Source: a virus. From it: 27,316 bases of DNA. Below are positions 2,809 through 17,298 of this stretch, piece by piece (the stretch's first letter is position 1; each line of letters opens with the position of its first letter). A model generated the notes under the pieces. It saw nothing but the letters and a program-made list of their open reading frames with translations, searched no databases and had not been told where the DNA came from. Where the stretch lies: IMG/VR virus record IMGVR_UViG_3300042691_033902, positions 1 through 27,316 of that record, one strand, 5' to 3'. The translations under genes were made by a program, and so were the position numbers.

Positions 2809-3364
2809 TTGTTCGTGTCCTTTCCTGTAAGTTTCTAATTGCTCTTACCATTGATTGTTTGAGCTCGCGTTCAAAGTCTTTCTGTATGTTTTGTTTGAAG
2901 TCTTTTATCGCCGGATTAAAGTAAGGTCTTGCTTTTATCGTGACCTTCCCTTTCCATTTTAGGCTTCCCCAAATCTTTGTCCACATTCTGCTATTGTTCG
3001 TTTGCTTCTTTTTGAGATAGGCAAAACCTATCATTTTTTTTGTAGCTTTTATCTCGCCTCCATACTCATGAATCTTAGCGTATCTCACTTTGGATCCATA
3101 AGTAAGTTCGTACTTTGCTCCGCTTCCTGTGACCTTGTATATGTTATTCACATTTCCTTTGGTGAACGACTGCCACAATTTGCCGGATACCTTGTATAGC
3201 TTTGGTCCCGTATTGAATACAGTAGCTACAGAAGTTTCGCCTCCGGTTGCTCCTTGATCTATCATGAATTCTGCTATGCTAAGCTGCATGAATGTAGGGA
3301 ACTTTTGAACGTAGTCTGCAATCACGGGATGTATTACTTCTTTTGCTTGTTCGATTGTAAACAT
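2801..3364 (-). CDS. HK97 gp10-like / virion morphogenesis protein
   Basis: A 187-residue basic protein. Residues about 85-110 carry 'YAKIHEYGGEIKATKKMIGF' and residues about 143-156 carry 'KARPYFNPAIKDF'. The pair (HE.GG and RP[YF]..PA) is the hallmark of the HK97 gp10 / phage virion morphogenesis families, head-tail joining proteins. The C terminus is a long charged helix. I chose the ATG at 3364, which overlaps the connector stop as TGATG, over a TTG one codon earlier. The gene lies between the connector and the tail terminator, the usual place. Confidence 0.8.
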   Translation of the reverse strand: MFTIEQAKEVIHPVIADYVQKFPTFMQLSIAEFMIDQGATGGETSVATVFNTGPKLYKVSGKLWQSFTKGNVNNIYKVTGSGAKYELTYGSKVRYAKIHEYGGEIKATKKMIGFAYLKKKQTNNSRMWTKIWGSLKWKGKVTIKARPYFNPAIKDFKQNIQKDFERELKQSMVRAIRNLQERTRTNE

Positions 3365-3990
3365 CAAACCACCGCGACTCTATACTTTTTGAAATACTTT
3401 TGCCATTCCAAGTTCTGCAATAAATTCGTATTCACATTTTGACCGGCTCCGCCTGTGGATACGCTTGTCAAGCCAAACCAATTCCCGCCGTTTGCAGAGT
3501 GCTTGTATATCCAAGCTGCCATTTCAACAATGCCTTGAATTACTGTGTTCGGTAAATTGGCATCACTCCATCCGGTAGACAAAGCCAAGCGGAATTCACC
3601 GGAAGTGTACTCTTTGAATATCAAATAGTTTATTCCATTGTCGGCAGTATAGACAAACTTTGTATTTGACACGGCAGCATAAGAGTCAAATTGATTGTTT
3701 CTCCAAGAAAGCCCTGTGACTGCAGTATTCGCATTGTAAGGTATGTATTTCCACCTGTGACTCTTTTCTAAGCCCTCGCGGCTTTCTACGTAGGTAAAAT
3801 GATAGTTCAAAGAGGTTGCAATGAGAGGCTGTCCACAATAGTTTTCAGCCTCTTCAAAGCAAACTTCAAAAACGGTATCAAGCCATGAGTATAGAGCAGC
3901 GTCCTCAACAGTTTGATCGCCGGATATTTCCATGTTCAAAAACTTGAAAAATGCACTCTGAACTCTTGGGAACGCTGTCGTAAAACTCAT
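3364..3990 (-). CDS. head-tail connector (adaptor) protein
   Basis: A 208-residue protein just downstream of the capsid gene. The N-terminal helical part contains 'LDTVFEVCFEEAENYCGQPL', the pattern seen in gp6-like and phiE125 gp8-like adaptor proteins, which form a ring under the portal. A middle beta-rich insert is followed by 'NTVIQGIVEMAAWIYKHSANG', the final helix of that family. It overlaps the preceding 60-codon gene by ATGA and the following gp10-like gene by TGATG, so the connector block is translated in series. The first ~20 residues have no clear match. Confidence 0.75.
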   Translation of the reverse strand: MSFTTAFPRVQSAFFKFLNMEISGDQTVEDAALYSWLDTVFEVCFEEAENYCGQPLIATSLNYHFTYVESREGLEKSHRWKYIPYNANTAVTGLSWRNNQFDSYAAVSNTKFVYTADNGINYLIFKEYTSGEFRLALSTGWSDANLPNTVIQGIVEMAAWIYKHSANGGNWFGLTSVSTGGAGQNVNTNLLQNLEWQKYFKKYRVAVV

Positions 3991-8762: not shown

Positions 8763-9923
8763 CTAGACATATACGGACGGAGTTTTTCTAATTGCAGAAA
8801 AAGCCATTGACAAAGAATCTATCATGTCATCGTGCTTGTCTTGCTTTGTTCCGGTGAACGATAAAAGCTCGTCAGTGAATTCCGGTAAAAGATGAGGAAC
8901 GTGGTAAACAAGACCCGCTTCGTACTTTGCTTCCACCGGTTGAAATCTGTATAGTTTATCTTTTGTACTTGGAATCCCAATCACATTCATTTTGGTATTT
9001 CGTTTGAGCTCTTGTACTAGCCAAGCCTGTGCTTGATTGGACTCTACGGCTACGACTTTCGGCTTCCACTTATTCTCCATCTGAATGACTTTTTGACCAA
9101 TCTCAACAAAGCTCCATCTGCCTCGTACCATGTCAACAATGACTATCTCTTTTTTATCTGTGAGACCTATTACACAGATAGCAGTATAGTCTGCGTTCTC
9201 TTTCTCAGAAATAGCAAGATCCACTCCAATATAGTAAGACTTGCATTGCATATCATTTGATATTCTAAGCCATTCTCTCTTGATCTTAGCAGCATCCCTG
9301 TCTACATATTCTGCCAAGTATTCCTGTGCAAAGACAAGCGATGGCAGAACTTCTCTTTGCCTATCGACTTCACTTGGATCTATCAAAGGGTTATCGTATG
9401 TCGTGTAATGAAAAGACTTCCAATCTTCGTACTTGTCTTGCATCGTATCAATCTCTGCAAAGTGATTCTTTCCCTTCGGTGTCGAGAAAAAATAAGCATC
9501 GCCTTTGTAGTCTGTAAGCATAGGACTCAAGACAAAATTCCAGTCGTTTTCAGCATTGGGACAATATGCCCATTCATCTCCAATCAGCCTATGATACTTA
9601 TTGCCTCTCAATGCATCTGCTCTCCAAATTCCCGACATAGTGAGTACACTGTTCTCCAATTTGATTTGTCCCCATTTGCACTCTGCTCCTAACTGTCTAA
9701 AGTATTCAGAAGCTTCGTCGTATCTGCCTCTTAATTCCGGAACGCTTGGAGCCGTATAGAGAACCTTTGCATTGGGAACCGATATCATAGTCTCAAGAGC
9801 AAGTGCAAAAGCAAGATGAGATTTGCCAAATCTACGACCACATCGTACCACATTGAAACGTGATCTGCAGTCTAAAATTTCCTGCTGCTTCTCATGCAAA
9901 GATATATCAATTATCTCTGTCAA
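8763..9923 (-). CDS. terL: terminase large subunit
   Basis: A 386-residue packaging motor. Walker A is 'CGRRFGKS' (residues 28-35), Walker B is 'HRLIGDEWA' (about 110-118), and a coupling-motif-like 'YFFSTPKG' follows. The RNase H-fold nuclease begins at 'GVDLAISEKENADYTA' and ends with 'DKHDDMIDSLSMA', giving the acidic metal-binding residues. It is on the short side for TerL, with a compact ATPase part. No ATG occurs before the Walker A motif in this frame. The only plausible start is TTG at 9923, preceded by GGGGAA and lying 17 bases inside the small subunit gene; the frame has a stop five codons earlier. This unusual start may keep motor protein low. Confidence 0.95.
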   Translation of the reverse strand: MTEIIDISLHEKQQEILDCRSRFNVVRCGRRFGKSHLAFALALETMISVPNAKVLYTAPSVPELRGRYDEASEYFRQLGAECKWGQIKLENSVLTMSGIWRADALRGNKYHRLIGDEWAYCPNAENDWNFVLSPMLTDYKGDAYFFSTPKGKNHFAEIDTMQDKYEDWKSFHYTTYDNPLIDPSEVDRQREVLPSLVFAQEYLAEYVDRDAAKIKREWLRISNDMQCKSYYIGVDLAISEKENADYTAICVIGLTDKKEIVIVDMVRGRWSFVEIGQKVIQMENKWKPKVVAVESNQAQAWLVQELKRNTKMNVIGIPSTKDKLYRFQPVEAKYEAGLVYHVPHLLPEFTDELLSFTGTKQDKHDDMIDSLSMAFSAIRKTPSVYV

Positions 9924-10284
9924 GCTTTCCCCACTTAATTACTCGTTTGACCTCTTCTACTTTTACCTCACTTTGAATTCTTGTACCATTCAAACGGTGA
10001 GCTTCCTCTTCGCTGCCTATCAACTTCATGAGAGATATCTGCAGAGCCGGTGACTCTGATTTGAACCATTTGTTTCTCATTTGCACTTTAACATCGACCT
10101 TGCATTTTGTTATTGCTTCTTTTATGCTGTCTAATTTGTCTAAGCCAAGATTGTAAAACGTTGCACGGGAGCAAGGTAAAAAAGAAACGACATCCTCGAT
10201 AAAAAAGAGTTTGTACTTGTCAATAGCATCAAGAGCTTGCTTCTCAAGTTCCTTTGCATCGTAGGATTTCCCTTTCTTATTCAT
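9907..10284 (-). CDS. putative terminase small subunit
   Basis: A 125-residue basic protein directly upstream of terL. Residues about 20-60 hold a helix-turn-helix-like stretch ('FFIEDVVSFLPCSRATFYNLGLDKLDSIKEAI'), as expected for a protein that binds the packaging site. The middle is helical and charged ('ALQISLMKLIGSEEEAHRLNG'), and this 'LQ..L.KLig..ee...L' pattern is common in phage small terminases. The ATG at 10284 overlaps the ParB-like stop as ATGA, so translation is coupled to that gene; a start five codons earlier is less likely. The gene overlaps the TTG start of terL by 17 bases. Confidence 0.8.
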   Translation of the reverse strand: MNKKGKSYDAKELEKQALDAIDKYKLFFIEDVVSFLPCSRATFYNLGLDKLDSIKEAITKCKVDVKVQMRNKWFKSESPALQISLMKLIGSEEEAHRLNGTRIQSEVKVEEVKRVIKWGKLDRDN

Positions 10285-10817
10285 TGTTCGGGTTCCCATG
10301 CTTTTGAGTAAGGTTTGTCAAGATCAGGGTGCGCCATCACGCCTTGAGTATTCAGCAGTCTTTGTACCTCTTCTCTTTCCATTTTGAGACGCTTCATAAC
10401 TTCCTCGACAGTTTTACCACCATCAATAAGGTCTTTGACTATACTTCCCATTTGCAAGACTCCGTGTCTGCCTCTTGCTCTGTTATGTCGGATTGTTGAC
10501 ATCTGTTGGTGCTCTCTGTCTTTGGGTTCCAAGATTACCACCGGGACAAAACCACCGGTGAGTTCAAAGACTTCTTTGTGACCACTAACTGTCCACCTAT
10601 GAAAACCATCAACAATAGTCATGTCCGGATTTGCGACAATAGGCTGTGTCCACCCGTCCTCTTTTATGCTTGTTTTAAGAAGCTCCAATTCCGGAGGCGC
10701 GACACTATTTGGATTGTAATTGTTCGGTTGCAATGTATCTCTGTGTATCCATTGTAGTCTCTCTAATGGCATGACACGTCCGTCAGGGAGCCTGTGTTTT
10801 TGATCGTTGGTTTGCAT
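10281..10817 (-). CDS. ParB-like nuclease-fold protein, IbrB/YbdM-like
   Basis: A 178-residue protein with the ParB/sulfiredoxin N-terminal fold: 'LQPNNYNPNSVAPPELELLKTSIKEDGWTQPIVANPDM' then 'IVDGFHRWTVSGH' (the G-x-HR box), and 'MSTIRHNRARGRHG'. The C terminus carries a short helix-turn-helix-like part ('VEEVMKRLKMEREEVQRLL'). It follows the IbrA-like gene exactly as YbdM/IbrB follows YbdN/IbrA in E. coli, and overlaps the small terminase by ATGA. I chose the ATG at 10817, with AAAGGA 6 bases upstream; it overlaps the previous gene by 35 bases. An ATG at 10772 is the alternative. No ParA is present, so a partition role is unlikely. Its molecular activity is unknown. Confidence 0.85.
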   Translation of the reverse strand: MQTNDQKHRLPDGRVMPLERLQWIHRDTLQPNNYNPNSVAPPELELLKTSIKEDGWTQPIVANPDMTIVDGFHRWTVSGHKEVFELTGGFVPVVILEPKDREHQQMSTIRHNRARGRHGVLQMGSIVKDLIDGGKTVEEVMKRLKMEREEVQRLLNTQGVMAHPDLDKPYSKAWEPEQ

Positions 10818-12078
10818 AGTAGTTCCTTTTGTATTGTTCCGTTCCAAATTTATTCACTGCCTCGTCTCTTGTCATTTTAACACGACTTCTTGCTTTCTTT
10901 GCTAACTGTGGAAGCCTTTGGAGCTGCCTTTCCTTTGTGTCGCCTCTAATTGCTATCCTAGCTAAAAACTCCCAAGACACGCCGGTAAGAGGGCACGAGT
11001 CCGAATCTTTATCGGTGATTGGGTAGTCTGTTTGATTTTTGTGGTACGTAATGATCTTGTTCATAGACTTCGTACAAAGAGCTTTGTTTTCCGGTGACAT
11101 TTGTTGAAGCAAGACATTTGTGTATTCCTGCCAAGTTATGTCGGGGCGTTTCTCGGACTTGTTTCCGGTGTATATTCCATCGTTATTGTATCGCCAAGCA
11201 GTTTTTACTCCCTCGACTCTATCCAAGATCTTATGCCAATAATCACCGTATATTTCCTGCCATTGATCTAGTGAACGTAGTGCTTCCTCTGCAAAGATTG
11301 ATCCTACTCTTTGTTTCTCAAGTTTATTGTAGTCTACAGTCTTATTCAAGATATCATATTCAGTATTGTAAGGGAGACCTGTCTCTCTAATGTATTTCCA
11401 CACGTCCGCTGCTGTCCAATCATAGATTGGGTATGCAAGAGGTAAATTACTAGAGATATAACATTCATTATGCTTCCTAGTCATTACAGTGAATCTAGCT
11501 AAGCTCTCAGAAGCTCTTAGTCCTACCAAAGCTATTGCAGTGATTCCTTTTGACCTGTAATTGTTTATGTAGGTATCCGCGATATCCTGAAAGGACATTG
11601 CTTTTTTTACGCCCCCTGCTTTGAAAGGAAGCCCGTCCGGATGTTCGTAATTTTCATCGTACTCAAAAACAAAGTTCTCCAATTCAGTCAAAGCATAAGA
11701 CGGAATGTCACGTACCCAAAGATCTTTCTCTGCCGGATGCCTTGATATCCATATAGGATACTGCAAAGAACAAGCGTTTCTTAATGCCATAGGAAGTGAG
11801 TAGAACTTCATATCGACTTCCGGCATCGCATGAACTGCCTCCCATAATGCGATTGTACCCTTACCTTCTATCTCATGATCAACTGCCAAAACTTCAACCG
11901 GTAACTTGTTGATCTCTTTGGCTACTTCGATGGCTAGGTACAAAAGAGCAGTTGAGTCCTTTCCTGCAGAAAAATTCACTACGACTTTATCGTAATTGTT
12001 GAATATCTTAACAAGCCTCTCTTTTGCTGCCTCGTAGACATTCTTTTCTAAAAAGTGTTTCTTTCTAATTTTTACCAT
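10783..12078 (-). CDS. PAPS reductase-family PP-loop protein, IbrA/YbdN-like (DUF3440-like)
   Basis: A 431-residue protein. Residues 37-42 are 'SAGKDS', the PP-loop that binds ATP pyrophosphate, after a strand 'DKVVVNF'. 'VLAVDHEIEG', 'ALVGLRASES' and 'LPLAYPIYDWTAADVWKYI' follow the PAPS-reductase/adenylating fold. The C-terminal ~180 residues include 'CPLTGVSWEFLARIAIRGD', as in IbrA/YbdN (DUF3440). IbrA with IbrB was first described as a pair that activates prophage gene expression in E. coli; DndC in phosphorothioation is a relative of the same fold. CysH-type sulfate reduction is unlikely because no sulfur-assimilation genes are present and the architecture differs. The ATG at 12078 overlaps the amidotransferase stop (ATGGTAA) and begins close to the conserved part; an earlier ATG-less extension is dismissed. 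Confidence 0.88.
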   Translation of the reverse strand: MVKIRKKHFLEKNVYEAAKERLVKIFNNYDKVVVNFSAGKDSTALLYLAIEVAKEINKLPVEVLAVDHEIEGKGTIALWEAVHAMPEVDMKFYSLPMALRNACSLQYPIWISRHPAEKDLWVRDIPSYALTELENFVFEYDENYEHPDGLPFKAGGVKKAMSFQDIADTYINNYRSKGITAIALVGLRASESLARFTVMTRKHNECYISSNLPLAYPIYDWTAADVWKYIRETGLPYNTEYDILNKTVDYNKLEKQRVGSIFAEEALRSLDQWQEIYGDYWHKILDRVEGVKTAWRYNNDGIYTGNKSEKRPDITWQEYTNVLLQQMSPENKALCTKSMNKIITYHKNQTDYPITDKDSDSCPLTGVSWEFLARIAIRGDTKERQLQRLPQLAKKARSRVKMTRDEAVNKFGTEQYKRNYYANQRSKTQAP

Positions 12079-12608
12079 TGCTTTGAACAAAAATATGTGA
12101 CTCCATCCTCCTCTTGCATAACAAGGGGAAGCCCTTTGCTTGACATCTTGAATTCCCAATCATACGGCGTAAATTGTATAGCCAAATAAGCATGATCAAA
12201 TTCAATAGGAGCTTTGTTTTTTATCAAAGGTATCATTAGCTCGCTATCGTTATTTGTCTTCGCCTCAAAGCCTTCTACGGCTTTCTTGGGTATGTATCCT
12301 TCCGTGATACCATTGTGAACAAGAGCAAAGTCTTCTCTCACAATAGGCTGTCCGTCAAATATACTGTTTTCTCCACTCGTTGCAAGGCGGGAATGTCCTA
12401 TGCAAATAATGGAATCTTTTATCAAAGAACAAACCGTCTTAGGGTCCGGTCTTCCGGTTTGCTTAACTAGCAAGTGCTTACCATTCTTCATGATTGCAAA
12501 AAAGCCATAAGAATGTCCACCACGCTCGTCAGCCCTCTTGATGATAGTTTGTATCGTCTTTTCGTTTTTCGTGCCTTCACGGGCTTGAAAGCCCCAAATT
12601 CCACACAT
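12072..12608 (-). CDS. stand-alone class II glutamine amidotransferase
   Basis: A 178-residue Ntn-hydrolase-type glutaminase. The protein starts MCGIWGF, so Cys2 becomes the N-terminal nucleophile after Met removal. 'ADERGGHSYGFFAI' (about 26-39), 'GHSRLATSGEN' (about 70-80), 'ALVHNGI' (about 95-101) and 'TNNDSE' (about 117-122) match the glutamine-binding signature of GlmS/PurF/AsnB-type domains. It releases ammonia from glutamine, but no acceptor domain is attached; the acceptor enzyme should be a partner, most simply one of the two PP-loop proteins on either side. That would be a split version of the asparagine synthetase layout. The ATG at 12608 is chosen because it puts Cys at position 2 and has GGAGG just upstream; an upstream GTG would destroy the active site. 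It overlaps both neighbours. Confidence 0.92.
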   Translation of the reverse strand: MCGIWGFQAREGTKNEKTIQTIIKRADERGGHSYGFFAIMKNGKHLLVKQTGRPDPKTVCSLIKDSIICIGHSRLATSGENSIFDGQPIVREDFALVHNGITEGYIPKKAVEGFEAKTNNDSELMIPLIKNKAPIEFDHAYLAIQFTPYDWEFKMSSKGLPLVMQEEDGVTYFCSKQW

Positions 12609-13371
12609 ATTCCTCCGCACTCTTAATGTATTTTGAAGCTTTCATTACAACAGAGGGATCAATAGAATAAACTTGCTCCCAAGCTCTTTCTATTGTTCCT
12701 GTCCACTGCCTAGCAGCCCAAGAGCCCGTCCCTACGACAAAGCCATTGTTCCAAGAGTAAAAAGGAGCAAGAGGGAGTCTGTAATGGTGAAGTATTCCCA
12801 AGACCTCTTCGTGAGTGAAATCATATATTGGAGAATACCTTACGACTCCGGTCTGCTTGTTTCGATATATGCCGTCCTTACCTACGTAGTTTTTGTCTAG
12901 CTTTCGCCTCCCGGTCAAAAGCAGCTCTAAGTCTTTCTCTTTGAAGAACTTATTTTGAGCAGAATGTTGTACTGCTTTGAACCACTTGGCAGCCTGTGTT
13001 GAGTCTTTGGGAAATAACCAAGACAAGTTTTCAGAAAGCCATTTTAAGTTTTGACCACTATTGTAGACTGTGAGATCGCTTGGCATATTGTTTGTCACAA
13101 AACGTAGGAATTCCGGATACTCAAGATCATCAGTCATTCCAATGCAAGACGGGAATTCTTTGTATGCTTGCCTTGTAATGAATTCTAAAACTACGGAGTC
13201 CTTACCGCCGGACCATGCCAAACCAAAACGGCGATTCTGCAGAGTGCTTTTTATTCTTGCTATTCCCTTTCCTATGGCAGCATCTACGTCTTGCTTGGAT
13301 ATATGCCTTTCAATGTTTCTGTAAACATCTATGAAAGTATCATTTGAAGTGTTTTGTTTGAATCCAAGCAT
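12577..13371 (-). CDS. PP-loop ATPase of the PAPS reductase family
   Basis: A 264-residue protein with the PP-loop 'SGGKDS' at residues 54-59 after the strand 'RFGLAW'. 'IGMTDDLEYPEFLRF', 'LLLTGRRKLDKNYVGK', 'RYSPIYDFTHEEVLGILHHYRLP' and 'APFYSWNNGFVVGTGSWAARQW' continue the fold and likely nucleotide and substrate sites. It would activate a substrate by adenylation. It is separate from, and only partly like, the IbrA-like protein two genes later. The start is ATG 13371, overlapping the cupin stop as TGATG; a GTG one codon earlier is possible. It ends 32 bases inside the amidotransferase gene. The substrate is unknown. It lacks the QueC-type zinc cysteines I would expect, so a preQ0 role is not supported. 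Confidence 0.88.
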   Translation of the reverse strand: MLGFKQNTSNDTFIDVYRNIERHISKQDVDAAIGKGIARIKSTLQNRRFGLAWSGGKDSVVLEFITRQAYKEFPSCIGMTDDLEYPEFLRFVTNNMPSDLTVYNSGQNLKWLSENLSWLFPKDSTQAAKWFKAVQHSAQNKFFKEKDLELLLTGRRKLDKNYVGKDGIYRNKQTGVVRYSPIYDFTHEEVLGILHHYRLPLAPFYSWNNGFVVGTGSWAARQWTGTIERAWEQVYSIDPSVVMKASKYIKSAEEYVWNLGLSSP

Positions 13372-14171
13372 CACTTTGTCCGTATGGCATCAATCAAAGA
13401 AGCAGAAACTCCATCAACTATTGTTCTGTTGATCATTGGGTGGACTTCATCAGTTGCTCCAAAGTCGGAGTCCGGGTGAAAAGCAATGACATCCATAGTC
13501 TGTTCTCCAAACGTTTGAAACGCATGAAGACCAATAGGGTAGTCATTTCCATCAAGACCTTTCTCGTAGGAAACGCCGTCCCATTCTTTTATGATAAAAA
13601 TATCACCTGTGTTCAAAGGAACGTTCCCGAAAGGTGTCTTACAAAGACCTTTGCCCTTCGCCACAATTCCTATGCGATGGCTTGGGTGCGTATGCATCGT
13701 TTGATCTATATTTATCGGAAAGTGCAAGTGGTTCAAACATGGATCGCCAAACTTCACCGGCGGAATCAAAAGACTATCTGTGCATCCATCTATGTATTTG
13801 AGTCTGCCTTCACTTTCTATCCTGCCTCCGATTGTAAACATTGCTCTATAGTTAGTCTCGGGATATTTGCCTTCTTTGTGCAAAACTTCAATAATGATTG
13901 CAGAGCCGGTTCCAAACAATAAAAATTTATCATGTAGACTAAAATACATTCCGGTACTCAAGTGGTAGTCAAAGTCATGACTCCAAGAATTTAGGAATAC
14001 GGAGCCCTTGTAAACATACACGAAATATGAAGAGTCCTTTGCAGACAAAAAAGTATTTGTTCCGGTAAAATTGTGATACTTAATTGGGTAGCTTTTGTGA
14101 CTGCTATCGTCAAACAAAAGACCTTCTTTGTCACATTCAAAACTAATGAAAGAACCGTTCTCTTTTATCAT
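13371..14171 (-). CDS. cupin-domain protein
   Basis: A 266-residue protein with two beta-rich halves. The N-terminal half (about 1-125) has cupin-like strands (SSYFVYVYKGSVFL, STGMYFSLHDKFLLFGTG) without obvious metal ligands. The C-terminal half holds 'HTHPSHRIGIVAKGKG' (about 163-178), then 'VPLNTGDIFIIKE' and 'IGLHAFQT', giving the His and Glu/Asp pattern of a metal-binding cupin. Such folds act as dioxygenases, isomerases or small-molecule sensors, and the reaction cannot be told here. It overlaps the ParB-like gene upstream (ATGA) and the PP-loop gene downstream (TGATG), so it is made in step with the cassette. A metal-dependent oxidation or sugar/nucleotide modification step is a reasonable guess. 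Confidence 0.8.
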   Translation of the reverse strand: MIKENGSFISFECDKEGLLFDDSSHKSYPIKYHNFTGTNTFLSAKDSSYFVYVYKGSVFLNSWSHDFDYHLSTGMYFSLHDKFLLFGTGSAIIIEVLHKEGKYPETNYRAMFTIGGRIESEGRLKYIDGCTDSLLIPPVKFGDPCLNHLHFPINIDQTMHTHPSHRIGIVAKGKGLCKTPFGNVPLNTGDIFIIKEWDGVSYEKGLDGNDYPIGLHAFQTFGEQTMDVIAFHPDSDFGATDEVHPMINRTIVDGVSASLIDAIRTK

Positions 14172-14767
14172 TGCTTCACCTTGCTTTTACTGTATTCTTG
14201 TACCATTGTAAAAAGAGCTTCTCCGAGATTGCAGTTATTCTCGTTTTTGATATCGTTCAGCAGCATCAATAAGAAGTCTTTTTGCTCCTCTCTCATGACT
14301 ACTTCAAACTTCACAAAGCCAACGTCTGTGATTTTTGCTTCTGCATTTTGAGGCGTGCTTGCACTTGGCATTTCCGGAATATCAATAAGCTCGGGAACAC
14401 TACCAAAGTTGAAGCCATCAATTCCCCAATCTACAAGTAGATCCGTATCCCATTCATTGCTAAGCGATTCCCAATCCCAATCGCCATAGTTTATATTGTC
14501 TTTTGCAATGAATTCTTTTTGTTTCTCTTCTGTCCAATCTACCACCAAAACTTCTACTTGCTTTGCTCCTGATTTTTTCAAAGCCTCCAATCTCATATTG
14601 CCTCCAAGAACCTCATAATCGGTATTCACTACCAAAGGTCTTGCATCTAGCATTTCAGGGAACTCTGTCAAAGACTTGACTAGCTTCTTAAATTTATCAT
14701 CACGGATATATCGTGGATTGTTTTTGTTAGATTGTAGCTTTGAGATTTGTACTGTCTCTTTGTTCAT
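14168..14767 (-). CDS. ParB-like nuclease-fold protein (second copy)
   Basis: A 199-residue protein. Residues 6-75 are a ParB N-terminal fold: 'ISKLQSNKNNPRYIRDDKFKKLVKSLTEFPEM', 'RPLVVNTDYEVLGGNMRLEALKKSG'. It then has 'KEFIAKDNINYGDWDWESLSNEWDTDLLVDWG', a tail common in phage ParB-like proteins found beside modification methylases and terminases. Here the G-x-x-R (GGNMR) box replaces the GFHR of the other copy, so the two are not recent duplicates. The C-terminal ~60 residues are helical. The ATG at 14767 is chosen because it overlaps the previous stop as ATGA. It is the first gene of the cassette; no methylase is nearby. Confidence 0.88.
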   Translation of the reverse strand: MNKETVQISKLQSNKNNPRYIRDDKFKKLVKSLTEFPEMLDARPLVVNTDYEVLGGNMRLEALKKSGAKQVEVLVVDWTEEKQKEFIAKDNINYGDWDWESLSNEWDTDLLVDWGIDGFNFGSVPELIDIPEMPSASTPQNAEAKITDVGFVKFEVVMREEQKDFLLMLLNDIKNENNCNLGEALFTMVQEYSKSKVKQ

Positions 14768-15255
14768 TTGGTTGCTCCTAAAATTCCTATTCCTATTCCT
14801 ATGGCAAAAGCCGAAATAATCCAAGACCACTCGTAACTTTTTGACTCTTTTACGATAGGGACTTCAACTGTCTTTCTTATTATGCTGTCCGGTCTTGGTT
14901 TGACCAATAAGCTAAAAAAACTATTCTCTCTATTGTGAGAGAATGCAAGATTTAATGTGTCGCCTGTATTTGTAATCACAGAGTCTGACTGCACTATAAA
15001 AGCAGAGTCGCATGGTACTTTTTCTGAGACATAGAAAGTATCTTTGAATGGGACCATAATGCTTTTTACTTTGACATCCGGCTTCACAAAAACCTGTCGA
15101 GGAACTATTTTTACCTCTGTCACTGTATCCCTCTTTGTAAGATACGCATATTGTTTCTCATTGCATCCTTTGCCAAATAAAAAGCCGCAAAGAAATATCG
15201 CGGTCACTGCAGTCGTGACTATCAAGAATGTAAAAGACTGCTCTTTGTCGTTCAT
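14764..15255 (-). CDS. membrane protein with two terminal transmembrane segments
   Basis: A 163-residue protein with a hydrophobic helix at about residues 8-28, followed by a lone Cys (31), and a second helix at about 146-160 that is rich in Gly and Ile. Between them is a beta-rich, probably extracytoplasmic domain. The layout suggests both ends in one membrane with a periplasmic or external loop, or a lipoprotein-like anchor; 'FGKGC' does not make a clear lipobox. Proteins with this shape occur in Bacteroides phages near lysis or tail genes, but I know of no proven role. It lies between the phosphoesterase (ATGA overlap) and the second ParB-like gene (ATGA overlap), so it is part of the same coupled run. 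Confidence 0.7.
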   Translation of the reverse strand: MNDKEQSFTFLIVTTAVTAIFLCGFLFGKGCNEKQYAYLTKRDTVTEVKIVPRQVFVKPDVKVKSIMVPFKDTFYVSEKVPCDSAFIVQSDSVITNTGDTLNLAFSHNRENSFFSLLVKPRPDSIIRKTVEVPIVKESKSYEWSWIISAFAIGIGIGILGATK

Positions 15256-16088
15256 ATCTCTATCCTTCCGTTTTGTATCTTTATATTCCTCATTTGACCG
15301 TCTGATTGCAATATCGCAAAACCATGATTGCTCTTGGAATATGGATTGTAAGCTCTTTGCAATTTTGACAAAGTACCAATAACGTCTGCTCTTTTGGACT
15401 CGCGTTCCAATGTTATGTCGTAAGCTGTTGAAGTCCTATGCAAGTGACCTATGCAAACATTGGAGAGCGTTTTTGCAAGTAGTGTTGAAGCCGGATTTCT
15501 GCCTCCGCTTATTTTAAGTTCGTGACCGTGCGCTATCCACGTTCCATTGCACTCTATGATCTGATTGCTTCCTACCAATTCAATACCTCTCTTGTCAAGT
15601 TCCAAAAGTTCTTTCCATGACAAAAGACCTTCAAAGGCAGCAGCATTTTCTGCAATATACGATTCTAGCCTGTCCTCATGATTGCCTATCTTAAAAAAGA
15701 TTTTTGCCTTTGGGAAAGTCCCTTCCAAGTTTGTCAAAAAGTATTTTGCAAGAGCTATCTCACTTAAAAGATCTATATCGTTTCTGCTCTTTCTCCATCT
15801 TGACAGAGAATGTGCATCTAAGGTATCTCCATTCAAAACTATGTTTTCTACGTTCTGTTTGGATATGTATTGGATAGCAGTTTTTATCGCCGTGATATCA
15901 TGAAACCCTAAATGAATGTCACATAAGATTGCAGTCGTACCTTTGATGGACAAATTAGGAAGAAGCTCCTCCCTGCCATCTGTCATTTCAAGAAGCCATG
16001 ATGGACATTCCACTTCTTTCAAGTTCATTCTTTTTGATAGAATGTATTGGTACTCATCTTTGGTGAGTCTTACGGGCTTATTCGGCAT
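15252..16088 (-). CDS. calcineurin-like metallophosphoesterase
   Basis: A 278-residue protein with the five dinuclear metal motifs in order: 'LCDIHLG' (D-x-H), 'LNGDTLD' (GD-x-x-D), 'IGNHE' (GNH-E), 'IAHGHE' and 'IGHLHRT' (GH-x-H). The last two near residues 190 and 213 complete the site. The enzyme cuts phosphate monoesters or diesters of nucleotides, nucleic acids or proteins; its substrate is not visible. It overlaps the 52-residue gene by 11 bases and the membrane protein by ATGA. It could process DNA ends or act with the modification cassette. Confidence 0.9.
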   Translation of the reverse strand: MPNKPVRLTKDEYQYILSKRMNLKEVECPSWLLEMTDGREELLPNLSIKGTTAILCDIHLGFHDITAIKTAIQYISKQNVENIVLNGDTLDAHSLSRWRKSRNDIDLLSEIALAKYFLTNLEGTFPKAKIFFKIGNHEDRLESYIAENAAAFEGLLSWKELLELDKRGIELVGSNQIIECNGTWIAHGHELKISGGRNPASTLLAKTLSNVCIGHLHRTSTAYDITLERESKRADVIGTLSKLQRAYNPYSKSNHGFAILQSDGQMRNIKIQNGRIEI

Positions 16089-16239: not shown

Positions 16240-17298
16240 TTATCCTATTTCTATTACTACCACACATCCGCCTGCTCCGTTCCCTCCGGCTCCACTATTG
16301 AATCCTGCGTCAGAAGCCGAGCCTCCGCCTCCGCCTCCGCCGTAATTTGCTCCAATACCTCCCGAAGCTCCGGCGCGAGCTGTAACGTATCCACCGCCGG
16401 TCGCGCCTGCTCCTACAAGAGCGTATCTGAATATATGCGAGAGACCACTTGTCCCATTTCCTGTAGTTCCATTCACTTGAGGGTCACTAGAATTGTAGAG
16501 ATTTGGCGCACGGGCAGCTCCCCCGTTTGCAGAAGTCGTACTGCTTCCTGCTGCGCCTGCTCCACCGCCACCGCCAACCGTATATGCGTTGGAAAAACCA
16601 ACGCCGCCCGCCGTATTATTTCCACTTCCTCCGCTTCCGCCCGGACTGCAGTATTGAGCACCATATTGAATACTTCCGTAACTGCCAAAACCGGCTGCTC
16701 CACCACCATTTCCACCGGATATTTGAGTGACAGCACTTCCACCAAGACCTCCGGTTCCACCGCCTGCTTGAATTAAGATGTTTGCTCTGCTTGGATTTGT
16801 ACTTGCTTGGAAAAATGTATCGCCTCCGTTGAGTCCATTGATGCCATTGAAGCCATCTTGTGTTTGAACGCCTCCGCCATTACCTCCTGCTCCAATCGTA
16901 ACTGTATAGGAAGCCGCCATATTTACACGCAATATATTGTCCATTTGAACCATAGCTCCACTACCACCTCCGCCGCCTCCGGTACGGTTGACAGCAGTTG
17001 TACCACGCCTTCCCGAACCTCCGCCGCCTCCGGCTCCTATTACTGCTATGTGTACCAACTTTGTCCAAGACTCCGGTGTCCAAGTACCGCTTGATGTGTA
17101 CAATGTAGTCTTTATTTGCGCTCCACCGGCAGAAGCCCAAGATAGATTTCCGGAGCCGTCTGTAGTGAGAGCCTGTCCATTTGTTCCGCCGGTGATCTTC
17201 AAATTAGTAGTTGTCGTATTGATTGTATTGGTATTGTCAATAGTCTTGCTGCTTATGCTGTCCGGAAGCTGTCCGTTCTTGATTTTTGTAGGTGGCAT
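16240..17298 (-). CDS. glycine-rich tail adhesin-like protein
   Basis: A 352-residue protein. The first ~85 residues are a tail-fibre-like base ('GQLPDSISSKTIDNTNTINT', 'GQALTTDGSGNLSWASAG'). The 'SSGTWTPESWTKLVHIAVIGAGGGGGSG' part then begins a long Gly-rich domain with runs of 5-8 glycines to the C terminus, ending 'GAGGCVVVIEIG'. This pattern is known in phage proteins carrying the glycine-rich domain and resembles the polyglycine-helix sandwich of some T4-like adhesins, but I did not test it. It probably sits at a fibre tip and contacts the receptor. The position, between a fibre protein and a small assembly-like gene, supports this. Confidence 0.75.
   Translation of the reverse strand: MPPTKIKNGQLPDSISSKTIDNTNTINTTTTNLKITGGTNGQALTTDGSGNLSWASAGGAQIKTTLYTSSGTWTPESWTKLVHIAVIGAGGGGGSGRRGTTAVNRTGGGGGGSGAMVQMDNILRVNMAASYTVTIGAGGNGGGVQTQDGFNGINGLNGGDTFFQASTNPSRANILIQAGGGTGGLGGSAVTQISGGNGGGAAGFGSYGSIQYGAQYCSPGGSGGSGNNTAGGVGFSNAYTVGGGGGAGAAGSSTTSANGGAARAPNLYNSSDPQVNGTTGNGTSGLSHIFRYALVGAGATGGGYVTARAGASGGIGANYGGGGGGGSASDAGFNSGAGGNGAGGCVVVIEIG

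Follow-up and report, generated by a model that had tools for sequence, protein, structure and literature searches.

What do six consecutive genes that combine two PP-loop ATPases, two ParB-like proteins, a cupin, and a free-standing glutaminase accomplish for a phage? The question is raised by a 27,316-bp IMG/VR virus record (IMGVR_UViG_3300042691_033902, in its full length hereafter called the window), which carries a tailed-phage gene set (portal, capsid and protease, terminase, primase-helicase, and endolysin) and, in order of transcription, the genes that we call ParB1, bicupin, PP1, GAT (for glutamine amidotransferase), PP2, and ParB2 (Table 1). All six reading frames are open on the minus strand. 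We consider it fairly likely that the six together are an exchangeable DNA-modification module of a tailed phage, with a split PP1-GAT amidotransferase and with a product that disguises the DNA from restriction. Judging from the position that it shares with known DNA-modification enzymes of related phages, the cassette probably makes an undescribed DNA modification using glutamine-derived ammonia; we infer that DNA is the target, that PP1 transfers the ammonia, that the cupin takes part in the chemistry, and that the function is protective.

Indirect but specific support for this role comes from the place that the cassette occupies. Taking the flanking metallophosphoesterase as an anchor, we compared the slot between ORF163 and the terminase genes TerS/TerL across related contigs. 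The slot is empty in 27 contigs with the same flanks (~290 bp), holds ParB1 alone in L269 and L283, and in L250 contains ParB1 followed by ~1 kb of unresolved content before TerS. In other relatives it is filled by known DNA-modification modules: a fusion of ParB1 with an N6/N4 DNA methylase in L248 (PF01555, E = 6e-25), ParB1 followed by DpdA-like, QueC, QueD, QueE, and FolE genes in L277, L279, and L281, and ParB1 with DpdA-like, QueD, QueE, and FolE genes and no recognised QueC in L274. The slot of L281 also has a Vut_1-type transporter, and that of L277 has a DUF6884 gene resembling PF03883 (DpdC family). The same slot in L084 (on the same contig as L276) contains ParB1-cupin-PP2-ParB2. 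Another known modification gene (methylase, Mom, TET/TAGT, or 7-deazaguanine) was found in just 1 of 216 cassette loci. The cassette thus sits in the ParB1/terminase slot of known DNA-modification modules and excludes them; it replaces these modules rather than accompanying them. Because it is swapped with them behind the same ParB1, we read it as a DNA-modification module, in agreement with the role that an initial annotation of this DNA had proposed.

The company kept by ParB1 elsewhere leads in the same direction. Its relatives, 41-62% identical, are fused to or lie beside DNA methylases, Mom, TET/TAGT, and DpdA/Que genes, and phage ParBc domains fused to or beside DNA-modification enzymes have been described (PMC12783734). 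We scanned the 80 nearest ParB1 loci, checking representatives with Pfam and PHROGs and the others by profiles built from them, and found 34 methylase fusions and one methylase beside ParB1, 13 TET/JBP-TAGT loci, 12 Mom loci, 5 7-deazaguanine/DpdA loci, 4 ABC-GNAT fusions, 2 cupin cassettes, and 9 unrecognised neighbourhoods. A known DNA-modification enzyme is therefore present in 65 of the 80 loci versus 4 of 43 control phage loci, a contrast to be read in the light of a small, imperfectly matched control set and of a query alignment that contained rows from methylase and Que loci. The ParB_N match itself is modest (E = 1e-5), slightly below the Pfam cut-off for ParB1 and slightly above it for ParB2; taken together, the findings fit ParB proteins that target or assist the enzymes, and they lend no support to the cutting of DNA that the initial annotation had allowed for. 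Of note, an ABC-ATPase-GNAT acetyltransferase fusion (phrog_11143) stands behind the same ParB1 in L338 (1001-2077), L343, L399, and L403 and is a candidate for a further undescribed phage DNA-modification enzyme. In L339, the gene immediately following ParB1 (3125-3823) encodes an FkbM-type methyltransferase; its neighbour is similar to the TET/JBP oxygenase gene of L347, and the methyltransferase might further process an oxidised base.

GAT comprises an entire class II glutaminase domain, to which no synthase domain is attached. It scores 26.9 bits against GATase_6 (Pfam cut-off, 27.0), its profile matches the glutaminase domains of GlmS and PurF (E = 1e-16), and it has the residues that define the class, namely the N-terminal Cys, the Arg/Thr pair, the Asn-Gly oxyanion hole, and the Asp: C2, R74, T77, N99-G100, and D121 are invariant in 15 of 15 aligned stand-alone relatives. 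PP1 belongs to the PAPS_reduct family and conserves the PP-loop AWSGGKDS, and the catalytic residues of GAT and of the PP-loops remain intact across 21-62% identity. A viral scan with the GAT alignment alone returned 19 loci, and PP1 lies directly 5' of GAT in every one of them, whatever the remaining order (e.g., PP1-GAT-PP2-ParB2 and PP2-ParB2-cupin-PP1-GAT). PP1 is likewise directly 5' of GAT in Streptomyces (L210 and L211), in Clostridia (L173 and L175, PP1-GAT-ParB1'-PP2-ParB2), and in a metagenome-assembled genome of Gemmatimonadetes (L223, PP2-ParB2-PP1-GAT-cupin). Streptomyces sp. MP131-18 and S. cavernae carry loci of the PP1-GAT-PP2 type, and Acetatifactor muris DSM 23669 and Parablautia carry GAT-less types. 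On the PP1 tree, the GAT label changes five times, and at least three of these changes are forced by well-supported branches. Since GAT is invariably found directly behind PP1, we propose, on strong gene-order evidence, that the two are partners and would constitute a split equivalent of asparagine synthetase, as anticipated by the initial annotation, which had coupled a glutaminase to a PP-loop enzyme. The glutaminase genes of Zobellviridae/PA11 and CW02 were considered as relatives and rejected, since they belong to a different, amidoligase-based cluster.

The cassette recurs well beyond the window. IMG/VR scans yielded 161 relatives of the cupin and 128 of PP1, of which 80 each were retained, and a genome scan gave 60 loci. 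Nine further, diverged virus contigs share the exact six-gene order, which is complete in L025, L049, L054, and L089 and truncated by the contig end in L003, L052, L053, L055, and L073. ParB1 is directly 5' of the cupin in 69 of 75 loci, and PP2 and ParB2 follow downstream of it in 56 and 57 of 60 loci, respectively. The wider ParB1-cupin-PP2-ParB2 cassette is present in dozens of virus contigs, a frequent variant having an extra PAPS_reduct gene inserted, while Clostridia and Bacteroidales harbour a cupin-less, GAT-less variant, PP1-ParB1'-PP2-ParB2. Because the same order is kept in diverged phages, it is far from chance. The six-gene form is thus the most complete state of a cassette that is both modular and widespread, with GAT as its optional part. 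The initial annotation had staked its idea on the co-occurrence of these families, and the idea survived this search; its statement that the exact set was undescribed also stands, as we found no published description within the papers that could be searched. In L002, a contig near-identical to the window, PP2 (1480-2828) is divided between two frames, either through an error in sequencing or because this copy is broken.

PP2 and ParB2 form a second fixed pair, matching the IbrA/IbrB-like families. PP2 combines PAPS_reduct and DUF3440 (42 bits, cut-off 25; phrog_2302, E = 3e-68) and keeps an SGGKDS-type PP-loop, and ParB2 matches phrog_2159 (E = 5e-67). Over only part of its length, the predicted structure of PP2 (pLDDT 91) is similar to PAPS reductases, FAD synthase, LarE, and TilS. 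Relatives of PP2 occur in more than 200 GenBank phage records, where they are annotated as auxiliary metabolic genes for PAPS reductase or as "co-activators," and we found no biochemistry of these DUF3440/IbrA-like proteins. Alignments of relatives contain no invariant cysteine in either PP1 or PP2, and the catalytic cysteine of PAPS reductase (CysH) is thus not conserved, so that "PAPS reductase" is a fold label and not a function. Four PP2 cysteines (94, 259, 276, and 373) are present in most GAT-less cupin-type loci and all absent in the GAT-bearing type B clade of the window; they could form a metal or Fe-S site that was lost once. We also considered a switch from sulfur to ammonia, in which cysteine loss would track GAT. 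Five GAT-less loci also lack the PP2 cysteines, the GAT-bearing L094 retains most of them, the clostridial GAT loci L173 and L175 keep all four PP1 cysteines, and independent contrasts calculated on the PP1 tree did not support the switch; it remains a lead only.

Could the cassette belong to a chemistry that is already described? We searched the cassette phages for the marker genes of known routes, including the record of the window in every search except that for thymidylate synthase; most of these records are fragments, and absences from them are weaker than absences from complete genomes. A thymidylate-synthase homolog, the marker of hydroxymethyl-pyrimidines, was found in 0 of 15 cassette virus records, a set that contains fragments but not the window's own record. 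None of 13 records contained a TGT (PF01702, a model that may miss divergent DpdA), a cysteine desulfurase (for which a host enzyme could substitute), CmoA, Asn_synthase, or a C5-methylase above the cut-off, the last giving one sub-threshold match. The cassette phages tested had no N6/N4 methylase, and none of the 216 cassette loci had a Que, Fol, or DpdA-like gene. Neither PP1 nor PP2 is a QueC (best PF06508 match, E = 0.02), and the DndC score is 32 bits against a cut-off of 290. As these markers were not found in the phages tested, the hydroxymethyl, 7-deazaguanine, phosphorothioate, and carboxymethyl routes are disfavoured. We lean, if only slightly, towards a new phage base modification in which the cupin, the two PP-loop enzymes, the split glutaminase, and the two ParB/Srx-fold proteins would install a nitrogen-containing group without a known base-modifying enzyme.

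Our working hypothesis for the mechanism is that ParB1 and ParB2 would act as DNA- or nucleotide-binding partners bringing the enzymes to DNA, and that PP2 and PP1 would activate their substrates by adenylation with ATP. GAT would hydrolyse glutamine and pass the ammonia to PP1, and the PP1-GAT pair would turn a carboxyl or carbonyl that has been activated, either on the base or on a precursor, into an amide or amine. For the cupin we envisage a metal enzyme by which the small molecule or the base adduct would be made or remodelled, and PP2/ParB2 might carry out a core step common to nearly all versions of the cassette. The product would shield the DNA of the phage against restriction by the host.

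Among experimentally proven systems, the closest analogue is the CmoA/CmoX/CmoY pathway of 5-carboxymethyl-C, in which the phage asparagine-synthetase homolog CmoY ligates an amine to a carboxyl on a DNA base (PMC12783734). A second cluster of such ligases has a glutaminase domain and lies beside ParBc proteins in many contigs (PMC12783734). The likeness would extend to an AMP-forming ligase, amide formation on a DNA base, a glutaminase domain in one cluster, and a nearby ParBc; the cassette differs in that its PP-loop enzymes are of the PAPS_reduct family, its glutaminase is a separate protein, and a bicupin and an IbrA/IbrB-like pair are added. Asparagine synthetase B, GlmS, and PurF likewise have a class II glutaminase domain supplying ammonia to a synthase, whereas the glutaminase of the cassette is a stand-alone protein of 178 residues paired with a PAPS_reduct PP-loop enzyme. 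The cassette also resembles Gat-QueC in its logic of a PP-loop enzyme served by a glutaminase. Phage 7-deazaguanine systems (DpdA, QueC/D/E, and FolE) share the genomic slot behind the same ParB1 and differ from the cassette by the TGT and QueC results given above. Dpd systems also employ a ParB-like ATPase (PMC12839542). Dnd/Ssp phosphorothioation and BrxP of type 4 BREX share a PAPS-reductase-fold enzyme with a ParB-superfamily partner, a resemblance set against the lack of invariant cysteines, the desulfurase search, and the DndC score. Finally, the adjacent PP2 and ParB2 match the IbrA and IbrB families, respectively, a pair that isolated phages carry without cupin, PP1, or GAT.

Several observations weigh against a DNA modification fed by glutamine, in addition to the limits of the ParB1 comparison mentioned above. 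Since ~100 loci have PP1 but no GAT, the core reaction can do without ammonia. The tested cassette phages have no recognised first-step base-modifying enzyme (methylase, TGT, thymidylate-synthase homolog, or CmoA), which means that the cassette itself would have to start the chemistry or that its target could be RNA, nucleotides, or protein. An RNA target such as tRNA, or the nucleotide pool, would aid phage translation or help to evade an RNA-targeting defence, and it would suit PP-loop folds, which are frequent in tRNA modification enzymes (TilS, TtcA, and QueC) and which in PP2 find structural matches to NcsA, TilS, and another tRNA sulfurtransferase. We nonetheless judge this explanation unlikely, given that the occupants of the slot and the partners of ParB1 in relatives are DNA-modification enzymes and that DNA methylases occur as fusions with the ParB domain. 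Further, the sole published role of IbrA/IbrB relatives is the co-activation of prophage genes. PP2 and ParB2 belong to these pair families, and the cassette could on that ground be a regulatory or lysogeny module, a PP-loop/ParB co-activator of expression involving no DNA chemistry; this seems quite improbable to us in view of strictly conserved catalytic motifs, of a glutaminase and a cupin that fit poorly with a purely regulatory role, and of the near confinement of the cupin type to virus contigs (0 matches in 296 Bacteroidota genomes, a search that had no positive control).

The initial annotation had left room for sulfur instead of ammonia, and PP1 and PP2 could then be DndC-type sulfurtransferases of a phosphorothioate-like DNA modification. 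Both are PAPS_reduct proteins, PP2 is weakly similar to the DndC and BrxP models, and the four PP2 cysteine positions are common among GAT-less relatives. The PP2 of the window has none of these four cysteines, however, and together with PP1 lacking an invariant cysteine, a DndC score far under its cut-off, and a desulfurase undetected in 13 virus records, this makes the sulfur reading very improbable; that part of the annotation was not borne out, and we favour the ammonia variant. As for an auxiliary metabolic island for sulfur or amino-sugar metabolism, unrelated to DNA, such genes are mostly labelled as auxiliary metabolic genes, for PAPS reductase or for an aminotransferase. We give this option hardly any credence, considering the missing PAPS-reductase-type catalytic cysteine, a GAT without a synthase domain, the ParB partners, and the exchange of the slot with DNA-modification modules.

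The cupin matches AraC_binding/cupin right at the cut-off, a PDB sequence search with its family gave no match, and its AlphaFold2 model (pLDDT 93) has the DUF861 and (S)-ureidoglycine aminohydrolase bicupins as best PDB folds (TM ~0.6). Its invariant residues are H160, H162, H216, C130, and C145; no reaction, such as the oxidation or isomerisation that the initial annotation had suggested, can be deduced from a bicupin fold with invariant histidines. The sole homolog in the plasmid collection, on a Paraburkholderia caribensis megaplasmid (L165, 7863-9376), was rejected as a cassette: it is itself an orphan, followed by an S-adenosylmethionine methyltransferase gene, and the rest of the cassette is absent. 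The methyltransferase neighbour may hint at the substrate of the cupin. Another clue is a multi-transmembrane protein: among 113 PP1 loci that lack both cupin and GAT, most of them from Clostridia prophages and viruses, ~100 encode one near the cassette on the same strand, against 0 of 95 cupin loci. Such a gene lies directly 5' of PP1 in L112 (6614-7999), L173 (4609-5982), and ~100 other PP1 loci; in the representatives tested it encodes a sodium:solute symporter (PF00474, E = 1e-21), an unusual phage cargo, and this cluster lies just 5' of PP1 in 89 of 121 loci. The symporter, which stands in place of the cupin in GAT-less versions from gut Clostridia prophages, is possibly an importer of a modification precursor, and importer and cupin may be alternative routes to one small-molecule building block, likewise Vut_1 in the Que-type slot; since the split between symporter and cupin follows host groups, this is a lead and not a proof.

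The slot comparison provides a function that can be tested for the DUF3440/IbrA-like family, namely DNA modification, and leads us to expect a new nucleoside, while ParB1 marks a swappable locus and thereby a route to further modification enzymes. If correct, a glutamine-fed base modification would represent new chemistry in the restriction arms race between phage and host and possibly a new DNA-labelling tool.

Table 1. Genes of the cassette and of its flanks in the window
Feature	Coordinates	Strand	Description
Metallophosphoesterase	15252..16088	-	Flank, backbone anchor; Metallophos E = 1e-4, phrog_221 E = 2e-31
ORF163	14764..15255	-	Membrane-anchored-looking protein, 163 aa; upstream flank of the slot, kept in relatives
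ParB1	14168..14767	-	ParB_N-domain protein, 199 aa
Bicupin protein	13371..14171	-	266 aa
PP1	12577..13371	-	PAPS-reductase-family PP-loop ATPase, 264 aa
GAT	12072..12608	-	Stand-alone class II (N-terminal Cys) glutamine amidotransferase domain, 178 aa
PP2	10783..12078	-	IbrA-like PAPS_reduct + DUF3440 PP-loop protein, 431 aa
ParB2	10281..10817	-	IbrB-like ParB/Srx-fold protein, 178 aa, DGFHR motif
TerS	9907..10284	-	Small-terminase-like gene; downstream flank of the slot, adjoins TerL; same-place homologs in L248 and L269
TerL	8763..9923	-	Large terminase; flank; Terminase_6C E = 9e-18

The initial annotation had described six genes in a row, each overlapping the next and hence made together. 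The row is confirmed and so, base by base, are its overlaps, with 4 bases between ParB1 and the cupin, 1 between the cupin and PP1, 32 between PP1 and GAT, 7 between GAT and PP2, and 35 between PP2 and ParB2. The chain continues upstream through ORF163 and the metallophosphoesterase (4 bases each) and downstream to TerS and TerL (4 and 17 bases), so that joint production holds for ~10 genes but does not define the cassette; its boundary is set by comparative genomics and not by overlap alone. Farther upstream, beside head-decoration and tail-fibre-like genes, the window encodes a glycine-rich repetitive protein (16240-17298), probably a receptor-binding or tail-tip component.

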